A stretch of DNA of 33,244 nucleotides from an uncultured Isosphaeraceae bacterium (lineage in GTDB: Bacteria > Planctomycetota > Planctomycetia > Isosphaerales > Isosphaeraceae). The translations under genes and the position numbers were made by a program. Under the pieces are notes generated by a model. It saw only the letters and a list, made by a program, of their open reading frames with translations. It ran no database searches and was not told where the DNA came from. Shown one piece after another: positions 18,462-26,249 of the stretch; position 1 is the stretch's first letter; every line of letters starts with the position of its first letter. The DNA lies in the NCBI GenBank assembly GCA_937858365.1, contig CALLYK010000459.1, forward strand, positions 1-33,244. Reading direction: 5' to 3'.

Positions 18462-18497
18462 GCGAGCGAAACGCGCGCTCCTCAGCGTTTCTTCTTC
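18456..18497 (+). terminator. Hairpin terminator spanning both convergent stop codons
   Basis: CGCTGAG (18456-18462) pairs with CTCAGCG (18481-18487), and inside it GAGCG (18464-18468) pairs with CGCTC (18476-18480). One base (18463) is bulged and the loop has 7 bases. A pyrimidine run TTTCTTCTTC follows at 18488-18497. The left arm holds the TGA of the plus-strand gene and the right arm the TGA of the minus-strand lipoprotein gene. It looks like an intrinsic terminator for the plus strand; no T-tract follows on the minus side, though the stem could still act there. Confidence 0.65.
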
Positions 18498-18916
18498 GGG
18501 GTCGGGTTGTTGTCCATGTTCATGCCGCGGTCGAAGTCCGACTCGCGAAAGACAGCGATCGGCCGCGCGCCCAGGACGACAAAGCGCTCTTCGACCTCGG
18601 CACGCGGGGCCGCGAACGTGAGCTTCACGGTGAATCGTTTGTCGCTTGGGGAAGGCTCTTCGCGGAGCACCTCGTATGCCGACAGCTTCTTTCCGCCGGC
18701 CCAATCGCTGATGACGGCCTGGACGGGAGGGTCCAACTCCATCAACTCGGCCTGCGACTTCCCATCACGCCACGCGCTTAACGTTTGATCCAAGGCCGTC
18801 CGGGCCGACTCTGACGCCGGCACGAGATTCGGCGTTCCGTTGCAAGCCGCGAGCGTCCAGAGGATGAACCAGCAGGCAGGGGACGCACATCGTCCCCAGC
18901 CTTTTCTGTTCGTCAT
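18482..18916 (-). CDS. Small lipoprotein, paralogue of the 20558 gene
   Basis: A 144-residue product starting MTNRKGWGRC with a lipobox TLAAC (C25), so probably a membrane-anchored lipoprotein. The mature part has L..TLSAWRDGKSQAEL, PPVQAVISDW, LSAYEVL, RFTVKLTF and a final VVLGARPIAVFRESDFD, then a lysine-rich end (PKKKR). The same plan occurs in the lipoprotein at 20558-21004. The start at 18916 is supported by GAGAGGGAC about 6-7 bases upstream; longer in-frame readings overlap the DUF1559 gene and look like shadow sequence. Only 11 bases separate it from the DUF1559 gene, so the two are almost certainly co-transcribed. I know of no function for the family. Confidence 0.8.
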   Translation of the reverse strand: MTNRKGWGRCASPACWFILWTLAACNGTPNLVPASESARTALDQTLSAWRDGKSQAELMELDPPVQAVISDWAGGKKLSAYEVLREEPSPSDKRFTVKLTFAAPRAEVEERFVVLGARPIAVFRESDFDRGMNMDNNPTPKKKR

Positions 18917-18927
18917 GGTTGTCCCTC

Positions 18928-19980
18928 TCAATAGCTGTCCGCGCTGACGACCTCGCCGCCGTTGCGCGTGCCGATGGCCCTCCAGGTCGCCAAGGAGATC
19001 GTGTCCTTGACGAACCGCACGGTGCCGTCGCCCATCAAGAGGTTCGTGCCTCCAGGGTGTTTGCTGGAGGGCGGGACCTGCATGGGCATGTTGGCCATCG
19101 TGCCCGGAAATCCGAGGCCCGCGCAGGTGTGGGCGTTGGGCACGTCCACGTGATTGTAGGTCGTGCAACACATCTCACCCATGACCCAGCTCATCCCTTG
19201 GCGGCTGGTGAGTCGCGTGGCGGTGAGCGGGTTCGAGTTCCGACAGGCTTGCCAGGTGGCGTCGAGGCTGGTCACCGCGGGAATGACCATCTGGTCGGAG
19301 CGGGCATCTCGATCGCGCGTGCCCGTGCCCCGGACCTTCTCGCTGAAGAAGGCGGTGTTGCTGAGGCCGTCGGTCACGTCGGCTGCGGTGACCGCGCTGA
19401 GATAGTAAAAAATGCCGCGATTTTGTTCGGACGGGGCCACGATGCTGGGGCTGCCCTCGCCTAGGTCGCACGCCCAGGTTTGCTGGTTTCCCAGGTAATT
19501 GATTCCGCCGACCCACTCGCTCAGGGGCGGGCCATCGGACGGGCAAAGGAAGGTCGCCACCTGGGTCCGGCTCGATGTGGCGTTCTCGCGGCCCGGGTTT
19601 TGGTAGGGGGGCATGAAGGGGACGTCTCCTTGCATGCCGGGTGTCTCGGGGGGCAGAAAGAAATTGATGGAGTTGAAAAGACTGCCCTGTTCGATGTGCT
19701 GCAACAACTGACTCTGCGCCGACCACCGAGCATACACAGGGGTCCCGGGCAAAGCGGTCGCGTAAGAGGCCCCCTTGCCGAAAGGCAGGACGCCCGAAGC
19801 CGCCATATAATTATGAATCGCGATGCCGATTTGCTTGAGATTGTTGATGCATTGCGTGCGACGCGCGGCCTCGCGGGCCTGCTGCACCGCGGGCAAGAGC
19901 AACGCGATCAAGATACCGATGATGGCGATGACGACAAGCAATTCGATCAATGTGAAACCGCGCGGGCGATGTGTACGCAT
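18928..19980 (-). CDS. DUF1559 prepilin-like protein
   Basis: A 350-residue protein with a type IV pilin-like leader RGFTLIELLVVIAIIGILIA: cleavage expected between G8 and F9, glutamate at position 5 of the mature protein, and a hydrophobic helix. The DUF1559 family pattern follows (LLPAVQQAREAARRTQC, NNLKQIGIAIHNY) and the protein ends with the typical NLLMGDGTVRFVKDTIS and a WRAIGTRNGGEVV tail. This family is strongly expanded in planctomycetes, where members are thought to be exported by a type II secretion/pseudopilin route, with unknown roles. The start at 19980 has GAGGAGGG about 8 bases upstream. It is the middle gene of a minus-strand unit: a small secreted protein upstream and a lipoprotein 11 bases downstream. 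Confidence 0.93.
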   Translation of the reverse strand: MRTHRPRGFTLIELLVVIAIIGILIALLLPAVQQAREAARRTQCINNLKQIGIAIHNYMAASGVLPFGKGASYATALPGTPVYARWSAQSQLLQHIEQGSLFNSINFFLPPETPGMQGDVPFMPPYQNPGRENATSSRTQVATFLCPSDGPPLSEWVGGINYLGNQQTWACDLGEGSPSIVAPSEQNRGIFYYLSAVTAADVTDGLSNTAFFSEKVRGTGTRDRDARSDQMVIPAVTSLDATWQACRNSNPLTATRLTSRQGMSWVMGEMCCTTYNHVDVPNAHTCAGLGFPGTMANMPMQVPPSSKHPGGTNLLMGDGTVRFVKDTISLATWRAIGTRNGGEVVSADSY

Positions 19981-20557: not shown

Positions 20558-21004
20558 ATGCGCAAGGACCAGCGAAGAACGCGTATCGCCGTTTTGGTCG
20601 CGTCTGTCTGCGCCTTCGGCTGCGACCGCGGCCCATCAAGGTCGCTCGACGCGCCCGACGAGGCCCCGGCCCTCAAGGCGCTTCAACTCTCGCTCGCATC
20701 TTGGCAAGGGGGGCGACGCGATTCGGGCGGATTGATCGGCGAGGAACCTGCCGTGGGTGTCGTCGACTCGCTCCGGCCCGATCGCCCCTTGATCAGCTTC
20801 GAGGTCTTCGAACCATCGCGTGCAGACGGGACCGCGCGCGTCTTCGCGGTCCGTCTTCAACTCGGCGAGCCGTCTGAGGAAATCCACACGCGCTATCAGG
20901 TCGTGGGTCGAGACCCGCTCTGGGTCTTTCGCCAAGAAGACTACGACCTCATCCTTCACTGGGAACATAAAATGCCGGCCGACTCGCCCACGGAGAAGCC
21001 ATGA
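20558..21004 (+). CDS. Small lipoprotein, first gene of the metal efflux operon
   Basis: A 148-residue product with a basic start (MRKDQRRTR), a hydrophobic stretch and lipobox AFGC (C22). The mature part reads L..SLASWQGGRRDSGGL, EPAVGVVDSL, LISFEVF, RVFAVRLQL and YQVVGRDPLWVFRQEDYD. The order and spacing match the minus-strand lipoprotein at 18482-18916 (LSAWRDGKS, LSAYEVL, RFTVKLTF, VVLGARPIAVFRESDFD), so the two are paralogues. The stop overlaps the adaptor start (ATGA at 21001), implying translational coupling with the efflux genes. It is 119 bases from the divergent minus-strand unit. A role as an outer or periplasmic accessory of the pump is an inference from position only. Confidence 0.8.
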   Translation: MRKDQRRTRIAVLVASVCAFGCDRGPSRSLDAPDEAPALKALQLSLASWQGGRRDSGGLIGEEPAVGVVDSLRPDRPLISFEVFEPSRADGTARVFAVRLQLGEPSEEIHTRYQVVGRDPLWVFRQEDYDLILHWEHKMPADSPTEKP

Positions 21005-22425
21005 GCCCTTCGCGAGACGAGGCCACCGGCAAGTCACCCTGGCCGCGACGCCTGGCGAGCTTCGCGATCGCGAGGTTACGCTTCGTCGTCGTCGTGGTCG
21101 CCGCGCTCCTCGTCGTCGGCGGCTGGGAGACGATCCGCCTGGCCTGGGACCGCTTGATCGCCCGCCCTTCGTCCGAAGGGGCCATCTCGTCGAGCACCGA
21201 GTACTTCTGCCCGATGGACCCGGGCATCCTTTCCGACTGGGCGGCGAAGTGCCCGATCTGTCAGATGACCCTGGTGCGCAGGCGAAAAGGTGAGGCCGCG
21301 CCCCTGCCGGAAGGCGTGGTCGCGCGGATGCAATTCACGCCCTACCGGCTCTGGCTCGGCGGCATCGAAACCAGCCCGATCGAATACGCCGCTCTGGTGC
21401 GCTGGGTCGAGGCGCCGGGGGTCGTCATGGATGATGGCGCGAGCGTGCGTTGCGACTTCTTCGCTGATGAGTTGGAATGGGTCCAAGCGGCGAATCATGC
21501 CGAAGTGGAAACACTTGAAGGGCCCAACGCGGGCTTAAGTCTTTCTGCGATGATAAGATCGATGAGTGATGACGCACAAGCGAGCGTGGTCCTGGGGGTC
21601 GAATCGCTTGACCTACGTCCCGGCGAACGTGTTCGAGCGCGTCTGGCCTGTCCGATCGACGCGCTGGCACCCTTCCGCGACTCTGCCGGCGGGCCTCCCC
21701 CGTTGACCGCGAGTGAACCACGCAAGGTCTATCGGTGCATGGAGCACCGCGAGGTCCTGCTCGAGCGGGCAGGTCGGTGTCCGCGCGACCAATCGACTTT
21801 GATGGCGGTCGCCTTGCGTGACGATCAACGCGTGCGCTGGTGGTGTCCGATGCACCCGGAGGTCACGGCCGAGCAAGCCGGCGCGAAGTGCGAGAGGTGC
21901 GGTGGTATGGTCCTGGTCCCTCGCCTCCTTTCGTATCGTCCGCGGGGACAGGCGCTCTCCGTGCCGGTCTCGGCCGTCGTCCATGAGGCGGGTCGGTCGC
22001 TTGTCTTCGTGGGACGCGGCGAGGGGACCTTTGACGCGACGCCCGTCCGTCTGGGACCGCGTTGCGGCGACACTTACGCCGTGGTCGATGGACTGGTACC
22101 GGGCGACCGCGTGGCCACGCGCGGGGCCTTCTTGATCGAGGCCGAATCGCGTCTGAATCCGAGCGTCGCGGCGGCGTTCTTCGGCGCAGGTCCGGGCGGC
22201 AAACACACGGAGGCGAGCGAGAAGGCGGTCACGGGCGACCTCGCGCTCATCGAGCGTCAACATCGTTGTCCGGTCACCGGCAAGGTCCTCGGCTCGATGG
22301 GCGGACCGGTGAAGTTGGACGTTCGCGGTCGGATCGTCTTCCTTTGCTGCGCCGGCTGCAAAAGCGCGATTGAGGCCGACCCGGACAAGTACCTCGCGAA
22401 GCTGCCGAACGCGGCTCGGCCATGA
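21001..22425 (+). CDS. cusB: CusB-type efflux adaptor with three heavy-metal-binding motifs and a YHS-like end
   Basis: A 474-residue membrane fusion protein with one N-terminal membrane anchor (LRFVVVVVAALLVVGG, about residues 26-41). Three heavy-metal-binding-type cysteine modules follow: YFCPMDPG...CPIC (from 67), YRCMEHRE...CPRD (from 244) and WWCPMHPE...CERC (from 280). The later part (SVPVSAVVHEAGRSLVFVG, DGLVPGDRVATRGAFLIEAE) is the usual membrane-proximal end of CusB-like adaptors. The end (from 421, HRCPVTGKV to FLCCAGC) resembles a YHS/TRASH metal domain. Between modules 1 and 2 there is only about 140 residues of beta-type sequence, and no long alpha-hairpin is seen. It overlaps both neighbours by 4 bases (ATGA), so all three genes are one operon. 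Copper or silver export is the likeliest job; the metal is inferred. Confidence 0.82.
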   Translation: MSPSRDEATGKSPWPRRLASFAIARLRFVVVVVAALLVVGGWETIRLAWDRLIARPSSEGAISSSTEYFCPMDPGILSDWAAKCPICQMTLVRRRKGEAAPLPEGVVARMQFTPYRLWLGGIETSPIEYAALVRWVEAPGVVMDDGASVRCDFFADELEWVQAANHAEVETLEGPNAGLSLSAMIRSMSDDAQASVVLGVESLDLRPGERVRARLACPIDALAPFRDSAGGPPPLTASEPRKVYRCMEHREVLLERAGRCPRDQSTLMAVALRDDQRVRWWCPMHPEVTAEQAGAKCERCGGMVLVPRLLSYRPRGQALSVPVSAVVHEAGRSLVFVGRGEGTFDATPVRLGPRCGDTYAVVDGLVPGDRVATRGAFLIEAESRLNPSVAAAFFGAGPGGKHTEASEKAVTGDLALIERQHRCPVTGKVLGSMGGPVKLDVRGRIVFLCCAGCKSAIEADPDKYLAKLPNAARP

Positions 22426-25400
22426 TCGACCGCCTAATCGACTGGTCGATTCGACATCGGGCTTGGGTGACGGTCGTGGCCGGCCTGATGGCCCTTTGGG
22501 GCTTGTTTTCGCTCGCGATCGCGCCGATCGACGCGGTCCCCGACTTGTCCGAAAACCAGGTGATCGTCCACGCCGAATGGCCCGATCACGGACCCGGCGA
22601 GATCGACCGTGCTGTGACGACACCCCTTGCCCGAGCGTTCCAGGGCCTGCTCGGGCTAAAGGCCCTGCGCACGTCGAGCGACCCCGGAGCAAGTTCCCTC
22701 TGGCTCATCTTTGAGGAAGGCGTCGGTACGGAGGAGGCGCGCCGGCTCGTCGACCGCCGGCTGGTCGCGTCGCGCCCGGAGATGGCCTTGCCCGAAGGAG
22801 TCGAACCGCGGTTGGCCCCGAACGGCCCCGCGACCGGACAGGTCTTCTGGTACACGGTGGAGGGCGCAGGTCTCGACCTTGTCGAATTGCGCTCGATCCA
22901 GGACCGGCTCGTCAAACCGGAATTGGAGAAGGTCCAAGGGGTGGCCGAAGTGGCGAGCGTCGGCGGTATGGTGGCCGAGGTCCACGTCGAGGCCGACCCC
23001 GTCCGGATGAGACTTTATCGCGTCTCCTTGCTTGCAATTCGGGACGCTCTGCATGCAGTAAACGCACCCGCACGCGCGGAAGACCTCGAGCGTGTCGACG
23101 TCCTTAACCTGGATGGCCGAAAGGTCCGCCTCGGCGATGTTGCCACGGTCTCGCCTGGGGCGCGGCCTCGCGTCGGAGTCTTGGAGAAGGACGGCCTGGA
23201 AGTGGCGGGCGGGGTCGTCTTGATGAAGCACGGCCAAGACCCATTGGCCCTCACTCGGCGTTTGAAGGAGGGCCTGCGCGCGATCGCGCCGCGCCTTCCG
23301 ACCGGTGTTCGGGTCTTACCGGCCTATGATCGCACCCCCTTGATTCAAGGGGCCGTGGGCACTGTTCGGGGCACGATCGTCGAGGCGATGATCTGCGCCT
23401 CCATCTGCGTCTTGGTGGTGATCCGTCATGCGCGGGCCGCGTTCGTGGTGGCGATCATGCCGCTTCTCTCGGTGCTCACTTGCTTCGGTTCCCTGGAAGC
23501 GCTTCGGTTGGCGGGACTGGCCGAAGTCCCGGTCAACATCATGTCCCTGGCTGGTCTGGCGATCTCGATCGGTCTGCTCGTGGACTCGGCGGTCGTCTTG
23601 GTCGAGAATTCGTTGCATCTCCTCCATCAACGTTACGGCGACGGCCCGATTGGTCGCGATGCTCCGCTGGTCGTGGCCGAGGCTTGCCGCCAGGTGGGTC
23701 GACCGATCACGTTCGCATTGTTAATAATGCTTATCTCGTTCTTACCCGTCTTCGCGCTGGATGGCTTGGAAGGGAAGATGTTCCGGCCTCTGGCGATCAC
23801 GAAGACGCTCGCGGTAGGGGCGTCGGGCTTGCTCGCGATCACGCTGGTCCCCGCGTTGACCGCCTGGCTCGTGCGCGGCCGGGCCCGCGGCGACGAGTCG
23901 AGTCCCATCGTCCGAGGTCTGATCGAGGTCTATCGGCCGCTGCTGAGCGCCCTTCTGGACCGGCCGGCCCCCTTGTTTTGGTTGCTCGCGGCGATGTTCA
24001 TCTTGTCGGGCGTCGTGATCGGAGATCGGCGTTTCTTTCTGGTCTTGCTCGGTTTGGGACTGATTGTGTACGGCGGGTCGGCCCGCACGTTCACGAGCAA
24101 GGCGCTGGGAATGGCGGCCCTCGTGCTCCTTGCTTTGATCGCGGAACGAACGATCGAGCCGCTGGGGAGCGAATTCCTGGCGCCCTTGGATGAGCGTGTT
24201 GTGATGGACATGCCGATCTCGGTCCCCGGAATGACGATTGAGCAAGGGACCGACGACCTGAAGGCCCGCAACATGGTCCTTTGTCGCTTTCCGGAAGTCG
24301 CGATGGTGATGGGGAAACTCGGGCGAGCGGAGACCTCCACCGACCCGGCGCCGCTGGACATGATCGAAACGATGGTGGAGTTTCACCCCAGCGAGTTCTG
24401 GCCGGCGCGCACGCTGGCCGCGTCGTTCGTCCGCGAAGCGATGGCCAAAACGCGGGAACGACTGACCGCGCTCGGTTGGGTCGATGGCGGGCCCCTGGCC
24501 GGCCCCGACGCGGACCATGAACAGGTCCATTCCTTGTTCAACGCGCAAATGCGCGAGTACGTCTATCAACGAAATCGAGAGCTATTTCGGTCGCCAGGCT
24601 TCGATGAGCGGACGATGCGACTCGACGGCCTGGAAGCGGGGGCCCTGCGCCGTTGGCGGGAGCACAAGCGATCGGTCGATGCTGAGCTTCGTCGGCGCGC
24701 TCCACTCTTACTCGCCAGGATCACATTGGAAGGGGCCCTTCAGGCGTCTCGCGCGGCACCGCCCGACCTTGCCGAGTACCTCCGTCGGCTGGGCGAATGG
24801 CGCAAGCGGCAAGCTCAGACGGCCCATCACGGTGGGACCACCGAAGGCGCTGCGATGTCGAGGATGCCCGCTGTCCCTCCAGGACTGGGACCGCAGCCGC
24901 GCCTTGAGGCCCTGGCGGAAGGACTTGCGGAGGAGTTCGCACGGCAGATGGTCTTGCGGCCGGCGCGGCGTGACGAACTTGTCGGGCCGGGGGGTGAGTT
25001 GGATCGGAGTGTCTTGATGCCTGGATGGACAAACGTTTGGACGATGCCCATTCAGAACCGAGTGGACATGCTGGCGACCGGAGTGAACACGGTCGTGGGC
25101 GTGCGCGTGACCGGGCCCGACCTGAACACCGTGGTCGCGACTTCGGAGCGGATCACCGAGGTCGTGAAAGGCCTTCAAGGGGCGAGCGACGTCGTGGCCG
25201 ACCCCATCCGCGGGCGCGTCATGCTGGAAGTCCGTCCGCGACGCGATCGGATTGAAGGCCCCAATGCGGACGTGGAGGTCCGCGAAATCGAAGCGATCGC
25301 GGCGACGGCGCTGCGCGGCATGGTCGTCGCTCAGGTCCTCGACGAACGCGGGCCTCGCGCCGTTCGCCTGCGCTTCGCCAGGGCGACCCGCTCTGACATC

Positions 25401-26249
25401 GACGCCTTGGGTGAGCTTCCAGTGACACACTCCGCGACCTCTGAGGATGGTCGCTCGCGACTGCTCCCTCTGCGAGCGGTCGCCGAGATCGAGCGGGTCG
25501 ACGGACCGGCGACGATCAAAGGCGAAGCCGGCATGCCCCGGAACTTTGTGAGGCTCAACGTGCGCGGCCGGGACCCGGGCGCCTTCGTGACCGAGGCGAG
25601 GCGCGTGGTCGCTTCGAGCGTTGCCCTTCCTGATGGATACCAGGTCGATTGGGTCGGTCAGTACGAGCACCAACGTCACGCCGCTCGCACGCTCAGCCTG
25701 GTCGTGCCCATCGTCGTCTTGCTGATCGTCGGTCTCCTTTATCTCACATTGAGAGACTGGGCCGACGCGCTGATCTTGGCCTTGGTGGTGCCGGGCGCTC
25801 TGGCGGGCGGGACGATCTGCCAGTGGGTCCTGGGGGCCAAGTTCTCGGTGACGGTCGCGATCGGTACGATCGCCTGTTTCGGCATGGCCACGGGGACGGG
25901 CGTCATCATGTTGATCTACTTGCGCGAAGCGGTGAGGCTGGCCGGAGGCCTGGAAGAGCTGGACGAGGCGGGCTTACGCGCGGCCGTGCTCGACGGCGCG
26001 GTGAAGCGTTTGCGTCCGAAGTTGCTCACCGAAGCCACCACGCTTCTGGGTCTCGTGCCGATGCTCTGGGCCGACGGGATTGGTTCGGAAGTGGTCCGAC
26101 CGATGGCGGCGCCCGTGCTGGGCGGCTTGCTCGTCGCCGACGAGTTCATCGACCTTCTTCTGCCGGTCCTTTTCCATCAGTTCCGCCGTCGGCGGCTGGC
26201 CCGACGAAGGCGACTCGGTGGCGAGCACGCGGGCGATCCACGAGCGTGA
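22422..26249 (+). CDS. cusA: CusA/CzcA-type heavy-metal RND efflux pump with a large insert
   Basis: A 1275-residue inner-membrane proton/metal antiporter, longer than E. coli CusA (about 1047). HME-RND hallmarks: a first helix and APIDAVPDLSENQVIV, EEGVGTEEARRLV, the TM4 motif GLAISIGLLVDSAVVLVEN, MPISVPGMTIEQGT, PGWTNVWTMPIQNRVDMLATG (methionine at the position recalled as a Cu/Ag ligand in CusA) and ATGTGVIMLIYL. About 190 residues (673-863) are inserted between the conserved VREAMAKT region and LDRSVLMPGW; this insert is charged and contains helical stretches. Extra hydrophobic residues lie near 520-585. In CusA an acidic residue in the AAE-type TM stretch aids proton relay; here the site reads ATGTG, as in CzcA-type pumps that also lack it. 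Start overlaps the adaptor stop (ATGA). No outer-membrane CusC homologue is adjacent. Confidence 0.92.
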   Translation: MIDRLIDWSIRHRAWVTVVAGLMALWGLFSLAIAPIDAVPDLSENQVIVHAEWPDHGPGEIDRAVTTPLARAFQGLLGLKALRTSSDPGASSLWLIFEEGVGTEEARRLVDRRLVASRPEMALPEGVEPRLAPNGPATGQVFWYTVEGAGLDLVELRSIQDRLVKPELEKVQGVAEVASVGGMVAEVHVEADPVRMRLYRVSLLAIRDALHAVNAPARAEDLERVDVLNLDGRKVRLGDVATVSPGARPRVGVLEKDGLEVAGGVVLMKHGQDPLALTRRLKEGLRAIAPRLPTGVRVLPAYDRTPLIQGAVGTVRGTIVEAMICASICVLVVIRHARAAFVVAIMPLLSVLTCFGSLEALRLAGLAEVPVNIMSLAGLAISIGLLVDSAVVLVENSLHLLHQRYGDGPIGRDAPLVVAEACRQVGRPITFALLIMLISFLPVFALDGLEGKMFRPLAITKTLAVGASGLLAITLVPALTAWLVRGRARGDESSPIVRGLIEVYRPLLSALLDRPAPLFWLLAAMFILSGVVIGDRRFFLVLLGLGLIVYGGSARTFTSKALGMAALVLLALIAERTIEPLGSEFLAPLDERVVMDMPISVPGMTIEQGTDDLKARNMVLCRFPEVAMVMGKLGRAETSTDPAPLDMIETMVEFHPSEFWPARTLAASFVREAMAKTRERLTALGWVDGGPLAGPDADHEQVHSLFNAQMREYVYQRNRELFRSPGFDERTMRLDGLEAGALRRWREHKRSVDAELRRRAPLLLARITLEGALQASRAAPPDLAEYLRRLGEWRKRQAQTAHHGGTTEGAAMSRMPAVPPGLGPQPRLEALAEGLAEEFARQMVLRPARRDELVGPGGELDRSVLMPGWTNVWTMPIQNRVDMLATGVNTVVGVRVTGPDLNTVVATSERITEVVKGLQGASDVVADPIRGRVMLEVRPRRDRIEGPNADVEVREIEAIAATALRGMVVAQVLDERGPRAVRLRFARATRSDIDALGELPVTHSATSEDGRSRLLPLRAVAEIERVDGPATIKGEAGMPRNFVRLNVRGRDPGAFVTEARRVVASSVALPDGYQVDWVGQYEHQRHAARTLSLVVPIVVLLIVGLLYLTLRDWADALILALVVPGALAGGTICQWVLGAKFSVTVAIGTIACFGMATGTGVIMLIYLREAVRLAGGLEELDEAGLRAAVLDGAVKRLRPKLLTEATTLLGLVPMLWADGIGSEVVRPMAAPVLGGLLVADEFIDLLLPVLFHQFRRRRLARRRRLGGEHAGDPRA

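Follow-up and report, generated by a model that had tools for sequence, protein, structure and literature searches.

We analyzed a resistance-nodulation-division (RND) heavy-metal efflux locus in the genome of an uncultured Isosphaeraceae bacterium (GCA_937858365.1; 6.8 Mb in 591 contigs, 85% complete), lying on contig CALLYK010000459.1, of which positions 1 to 33,244 (33,244 nucleotides, forward strand) form the whole stretch studied, called the window below. Its core is an operon of three consecutive forward-strand genes, with each neighboring pair sharing 4 bases: a small lipoprotein that opens the operon, LipA (20558..21004, +; lipobox AFGC and a conserved HWEHKM near the C-terminus, from a family alignment), a CusB-type adaptor of 474 amino acids (21001..22425, +; ATG start, judged to be a real gene), and a CusA/CzcA-type pump of 1275 amino acids (22422..26249, +). 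Upstream lies a divergent reverse-strand unit consisting of a pilin-like DUF1559 gene (18928..19977, −; start codon deduced from its match to the profile) and another small lipoprotein, LipB (18482..18916, −; start codon of our choice), which ends in an NMDNNP motif in the family alignment and is paralogous to LipA (28% identity, E = 4e-13); the names LipA and LipB are coined here. In the textbook view, heavy-metal RND systems are tripartite tunnels: the hairpin and lipoyl domain of the adaptor join the pump to an outer membrane channel. As judged from profiles, alignments, and a predicted structure, the adaptor of this operon has lost both the lipoyl domain and the alpha-helical hairpin and keeps its heavy-metal-binding (HMBD), membrane-proximal, and beta-barrel parts.

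The first membrane-proximal strand of the adaptor leads directly into the beta-barrel, and the protein is 94 to 113 residues shorter than hairpin-bearing relatives. In alignments with the adaptors of loci L023, L024, L025, L111, and L141, this difference forms the longest gap, which falls around a junction loop at residues 143 to 147 (21427..21441, +) and covers both lipoyl halves with the hairpin between them. The barrel-sandwich family PF16576 is absent from the adaptor, with three hairpin-bearing homologues that were scanned scoring 221 to 231 bits. The AlphaFold2 (AF2) model (mean predicted local distance difference test score 78.2, predicted template modeling score 0.55) has no helix pair in the core, its helices being the N-terminal membrane segment, short ones at residues 114 to 119 and 376 to 393, a linker at 406 to 420, and those of the C-terminal end; the control model of the hairpin-bearing L025 adaptor, built from only 10 sequences, shows lipoyl strands and helices at 183 to 197, 202 to 214, and 219 to 228. 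The sequence-only reading of the window had suggested that the hairpin is missing and had set structure prediction of the adaptor alone as a test beforehand. No normal hairpin is predicted, and the loss is larger than supposed, since the lipoyl domain is gone too; that reading had missed this second loss, the DUF1559 partner, and a change at the position of CusA E939. Because lipoyl domain and hairpin are lost, the adaptor would be left without a known means to grip a TolC-type channel. EmrA-type adaptors offer another example of modular loss, with the membrane-proximal domain missing and the hairpin kept and lengthened (PMC4158417, available part).

The remaining modules can be followed along the protein. 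An N-terminal membrane helix is modeled at residues 17 to 39 (21049..21117, +) with low-to-middling confidence, followed by HMBD 1 at residues 68 to 94 (21202..21282, +), placed from its CxM..CxxCxM motif. The beta-barrel occupies residues 133 to 218 (21397..21654, +), as indicated by the AF2 strands, structural matches over the same residues, and alignment with the ZneB barrel (Z 12.1); together with the membrane-proximal fold, the AF2 model resembles CusB (3ne5_C, Z 13.3, root-mean-square deviation [rmsd] 3.0, 179 residues aligned). Behind the barrel stand a degenerate HMBD 2 at residues 242 to 268 (21724..21804, +; C-x2-H..C-x2-D, with Asp in place of the fourth ligand) and HMBD 3 at residues 280 to 307 (21838..21921, +). 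The C-terminal membrane-proximal domain follows at residues 317 to 382 (21949..22146, +; SilB 5a4g, E = 1e-13) and is the only part recognized by NCBIfam (TIGR00999, CzcB family, residues 317 to 379, E = 4.5e-14, below the whole-protein cut-off). The protein ends in a YHS/TRASH-like module with a CPVT..CCxxC motif at residues 420 to 462 (22258..22386, +).

Conservation was read from an alignment of 20 adaptors, namely that of the window and those of 19 of 25 relative loci (left out were L022, whose broken frame runs into the pump; L023, L024, L025, and L028, which are hairpin-bearing or of another type; and L030, which is cut by a contig end). The HMBD 1 cysteines and C423, C449, C450, and C453 of the YHS-like end are kept in 20/20 rows, and C246, H249, C260, and D263 of HMBD 2 in 19/20, the twentieth being a gap. 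Three HMBD motifs and a YHS-like end had been claimed from the sequence. Pfam recognizes HMBD (PF19335, 58.7 bits versus a cut-off of 23.6) in two stretches, reporting the position of the best one only (HMBD 3), and finds no other family above its cut-off; the third motif is the degenerate HMBD 2, and the YHS-like end also falls below the cut-off (TRASH, 10.4 bits versus 27), with its cysteines nevertheless invariant. With all module cysteines conserved and the methionine triad of the pump kept (see below), the role of the adaptor as a metal relay that the sequence-only reading had suggested is plausible; the structural part which that reading gave to the lipoprotein is a candidate role for a conserved partner. 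In canonical Isosphaeraceae CusB paralogues, such as those of L047/L141 and L111, the place between barrel and membrane-proximal domain that HMBDs occupy in the hairpin-less adaptors is taken by a YHS-like module.

The hairpin-less adaptor type was found at 33 places in 30 of the 45 Isosphaeraceae-order genomes searched, including the isolates Paludisphaera soli JC670 and Aquisphaera insulae JC669 and four genomes in few contigs (G001, G027, G028, and G040). These adaptors are 40 to 51% identical and keep the module cysteines; the 33 places include a fragment in G008 and a match in two pieces, without internal HMBDs, in G021. At a threshold of 1e-60, at which split matches could be missed, 294 genomes sampled from the phylum yielded no additional full-length match, and the other matches were hairpin-bearing homologues with internal HMBDs in two genomes only. 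The adaptors of L023 and L024 (other Planctomycetota) and of L025 likewise have HMBDs between barrel and membrane-proximal domain, and L025 shares the YHS-like end; unlike the hairpin-less type, all three systems have lipoyl domain and hairpin and keep E939, with an outer membrane efflux protein (OEP) match at L024 and L025.

A canonical hairpin-bearing paralogue accompanies the hairpin-less adaptor in most carrier genomes. Contig C393 of the window's own genome carries a canonical Cus operon: a hairpin-bearing adaptor, a pump fragment, and a divergent OEP gene. In G040 (99% complete), which has the hairpin-less adaptor, no canonical HMBD adaptor is among the matches listed, and a Cus-type hairpin partner in trans is therefore not needed there. 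A mixed ring, in which the canonical CusB of the same genome supplies the hairpin, is thus countered by G040 alone and not in most genomes. At one locus (L106, G032:C117), the hairpin-less and canonical Cus operons stand about 10 kb apart in convergent orientation.

We compared the neighborhoods of 32 of the 33 hairpin-less places (omitting the G008 fragment) with those of 31 canonical places, at least 18 more canonical places lying outside the sample; OEP genes were detected with a home-made profile from 21 open reading frames (ORFs), not with Pfam, and several loci are shortened by contig ends. A pump is nearby at similar counts in both sets (31/32 versus 28/31). By Fisher tests, which ignore kinship between the genomes, the sets differ in OEP genes (0/32 hairpin-less versus 19/31 canonical loci, P = 2e-8), lipoproteins of the LipA/LipB family (31/32 versus 0/31, P = 4e-17), and DUF1559 genes (30/32 versus 4/31, P = 2e-11). 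No CusC-type gene adjoins the adaptor in the window, as had been stated from the sequence, and the linked channel gene in relatives that would have spoken against that reading is present at none of the 32 loci. In five genomes (G001, G007, G027, G028, and G040), of which four are in few contigs, the nearest OEP among the matches listed, down to about 5.6e-5, is either some 300 to 690 kb away from the hairpin-less adaptor or located on a different contig. The sequences thus support the view that hairpin loss and the missing linked channel are properties of the whole clade.

The DUF1559 protein of the window has both the family domain (PF07596, 122.4 bits) and the N-terminal methylation motif (PF07963, 35.4 bits), and ahead of an HPGG anchor it carries a Met/Cys/His-rich stretch, SWVMGEMCCTTYNHV..TCAG..TMANMPM. 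The DUF1559 proteins of the clusters form an orthologous group (62 to 89% identical to the first alignment row), with other DUF1559s near canonical loci reaching 36 to 43% identity to that of the window. Its presence matches that of the hairpin-less adaptor exactly: the same 30 of 45 genomes carry both, the remaining 15 carry neither, and the numbers of places agree (33 versus 33), with two copies wherever there are two adaptors (G002, G007, and G032). The two co-occur within genera as well: G003 has neither and G001 and G002 have both, G031 has neither, and G040 has both, with neither in G039, G041, and G042. A second, weaker DUF1559 group (1e-155 to 1e-135) is also confined to adaptor-carrying genomes.

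In the orthologues the rich stretch reads MGEMCC...NH...C...MxNMxM. This motif is found in 28 of 34 DUF1559 ORFs from the cluster loci (30 readable) versus 0 of 21 others from the window's genome (17 readable); only 21 of 30 background loci yielded a usable ORF, and 4/34 and 4/21 have no readable segment. One of the four unreadable cluster ORFs, at L106, shows the motif in the alignment, with the anchor HSGG instead of HPGG, and the motif pair is missing from the other two readable cluster ORFs, both of which are second DUF1559 genes (L089 at 1886 and L105 at 11658). At the DNA level, the GEMCC pattern matched three adaptor-free genomes, every match lying outside DUF1559. On these genome comparisons, two paralogous lipoproteins and a single Met/Cys/His-rich DUF1559 orthologue are inherited along with the module. 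The rich stretch, LipA, whose HWEHKM-like motif is conserved in many family members, and LipB are putative metal binders. As separate observations, a strong LipB-like match (L143, G010:C1:2997198-2997590) comes from a genome that does not have the hairpin-less adaptor, and no DUF1559 match lies beside it; several DUF1559s of related genomes pair with LipA/LipB-family lipoproteins at lower scores, so that such partners may help to sort DUF1559 subfamilies.

The pump belongs to the CusA/CzcA heavy-metal efflux (HME) family (TIGR00914, 721.8 bits versus a cut-off of 701.45; CusA 3t51, E = 9e-158). With E. coli numbering taken from CusA alignments and PMC8092243, and with the second pump ORFs of L025, L091, L106, and L136 dropped from the alignment, Met597 (24210..24212, +) corresponds to M573, and Met647 and Met883 complete the M573/M623/M672 triad, with E649 at the position of E625; these residues are kept in all 25 to 26 hairpin-less rows that cover the sites. 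The transmembrane methionine pairs are not retained as in CusA: M391 and M410 persist in most of the pumps (the window's has Leu at M410), and M403, M501, and mostly M486 are not kept, these three positions being non-Met in nearly all canonical planctomycete pumps too. Between transmembrane helix 6 and PC1, a region about 51 amino acids longer than in canonical pumps (23967..24143, +) holds extra hydrophobic segments, possibly two more membrane helices than in CusA; they are constant in the hairpin-less clade and common to L023 and L024, with none in canonical Isosphaeraceae pumps or L025. A second insertion, which separates the second and third triad methionines, measures about 235 residues in the hairpin-less pumps (647 to 883 in that of the window) and about 300 in canonical planctomycete pumps, compared with 49 in the E. 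coli numbering. We rejected it as a replacement for the hairpin, as it is even longer in the canonical pumps. The hairpin-less pumps form one clade (support 99 to 100), placed as sister to all hairpin-bearing ones in a tree with distant outgroups and long-branch warnings. We read the direction of change as loss of hairpin and E939 because both are general in other HME systems, not because of the root of the tree.

We favor the interpretation, with a probability of about 0.5, that this is a conserved TolC-independent metal-handling RND module of Isosphaeraceae working in the manner proposed here. The adaptor would surround the lower periplasmic part of the pump as a collar, and its cysteine modules would collect a soft metal, likely Cu(I) or Ag(I), and load the Met-triad cleft. 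The pump would be unconnected to a TolC-type duct and discharge metal inside the envelope, to be taken up by the lipoproteins and the Met/Cys-rich pilin-like protein for sequestration or onward movement; as constant partners of the module, these proteins are natural candidates for replacing the channel. More tentatively, and as a possibility that we would not press, the system may be a relay-type exporter that has abandoned the adaptor-TolC tunnel, with a metal-binding pseudopilin and two lipoproteins holding metal in the envelope or moving it to the surface.

Several observations weigh against a TolC-independent module of this kind. A search for TolC-like proteins, which the sequence-only reading had pointed to, shows that the cell is not devoid of channels: about 15 OEP genes lie elsewhere in the window's genome, one of them beside the canonical Cus operon, and could be shared, none being linked to the module, and OEP genes are present elsewhere in the five relatives named above. 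DUF1559 sequences occupy 83 places in the window's genome, and the function of this protein in the module may be a general one; 68 paralogues are given for Planctopirus limnophila in the available part of PMC10632474. The composition of the module also varies. The G021 adaptor (locus L026/L110) is without both internal HMBDs, and L088 (G013:C445) has adaptor, lipoprotein, and DUF1559 with no pump match in the stretch examined. Of the two loci without DUF1559, L084 lies on a contig that ends early, with the gene on another G006 contig, and at L101 (G027) the DUF1559-lipoprotein unit is about 2 Mb from adaptor and pump; physical linkage is therefore not required. Finally, in the BesABC system of Borrelia, an adaptor without a hairpin still works with a TolC homologue, although there the lipoyl domain and the linked channel are kept (PMC3807786, available part).

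That system is the model for an alternative that we regard as rather unlikely, namely tripartite efflux through an unlinked OEP, with the channel in direct contact with the pump funnel and the adaptor serving only to stabilize the pump. The many OEP genes in the window's genome and in the five relatives would provide a channel, and BesABC shows that an RND system can function without an adaptor hairpin. The adaptor of the window resembles BesA of Borrelia burgdorferi in lacking the alpha-hairpin (4kks, Z 12.1, rmsd 4.4, 167 residues aligned). The likeness ends there: BesA, in the portion of PMC3807786 at hand, keeps the lipoyl domain, is co-transcribed with a TolC homologue, and is a multidrug and not a metal adaptor, and its lipoyl domain is proposed to stabilize the TolC contact. 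Here the lipoyl domain is lost too, and no hairpin-less locus has a linked OEP, versus a majority of the canonical loci of the same family. In addition, about 35 residues of the DN docking region are missing from the pump of the window, at 23067-23087, around pump residues 216 to 222. The region measures 77 residues there; its median length over 25 full-length hairpin-less pumps is 112, and the other hairpin-less pumps keep it. As an observation on this pump, the deletion may affect trimer assembly or be particular to the lineage or the assembly.

The proton relay raises a different alternative. Of D405, E939, and K984, the hairpin-less pumps retain D and K, as well as T987. The E939 position is replaced by S in 21, A in 3, and G in 1 of 25/25 hairpin-less pumps, the single glycine being Gly1158 of the window (25893..25895, +), with E in 27/27 full-length pumps of hairpin-bearing systems; the region is missing in 6/31 hairpin-less and 4/32 other rows, and L028 (A at a cut contig end) was excluded. 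It is one of 28 columns separating the two pump groups under the filter used and should not be given too much weight. A point mutation of E939 abolishes transport by CusA (PMC8092243, available part), in line with a module that is energy-uncoupled or regulatory and acts as a sensor or buffer through adaptor, lipoproteins, and pilin-like protein, not as a normal proton-driven exporter. We consider this improbable, given that D405, K984, T987, and the Met triad are all retained. Nor do we take the loss of E939 as proof of a dead pump, as divalent-metal HME-RND pumps of the CzrA/NczA group are naturally without E939 and K984 according to the text available from PMC3637150.

In the pump tree, the longest branch leads to the pump of the window; together with the DN deletion of this pump and its glycine at the E939 position, this could suggest a relict cluster, decaying and with an adaptor shortened through disuse. 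Such decay is very unlikely in view of the 33 places in 30 genomes, the degree of adaptor identity with its retained module cysteines, the strongly supported pump clade, and the exact co-inheritance with a well-conserved DUF1559 orthologue. An assembly or gene-model artefact, conceivable from the incomplete source genome, is refuted for the clade by the independent genomes, both isolates and the four in few contigs among them, and has a negligible probability.

Set against known systems, the conserved module of Isosphaeraceae that we favor shares with CusCBA and SilCBA the adaptor barrel and membrane-proximal fold and the Met triad of the pump, and its Cys-rich HMBDs are as in other HME adaptors. 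It differs in having no lipoyl domain, hairpin, or linked CusC-type gene, in the replacement of E939, in the extra hydrophobic pump segments, and in its lipoprotein and DUF1559 partners. A hairpin-less RND adaptor as such is already known from BesA (PMC3807786; also PMC4446572, both as far as available). Listings from our searches of an open library brought up neither a metal adaptor that lacks both lipoyl domain and hairpin nor a link to DUF1559; what is new is thus a metal adaptor that is without the lipoyl domain as well, has no linked channel, and is tied to a DUF1559 protein.

If this interpretation is true, a clade of heavy-metal RND systems without lipoyl domain, hairpin, and linked channel, co-inherited with a pilin-like protein, would mean that the tunnel is dispensable for such pumps, with the canonical Cus system in the same genome serving as a built-in control. 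It would also provide a first concrete role within the DUF1559 family, whose unexplained paralogues number in the dozens in a planctomycete genome.

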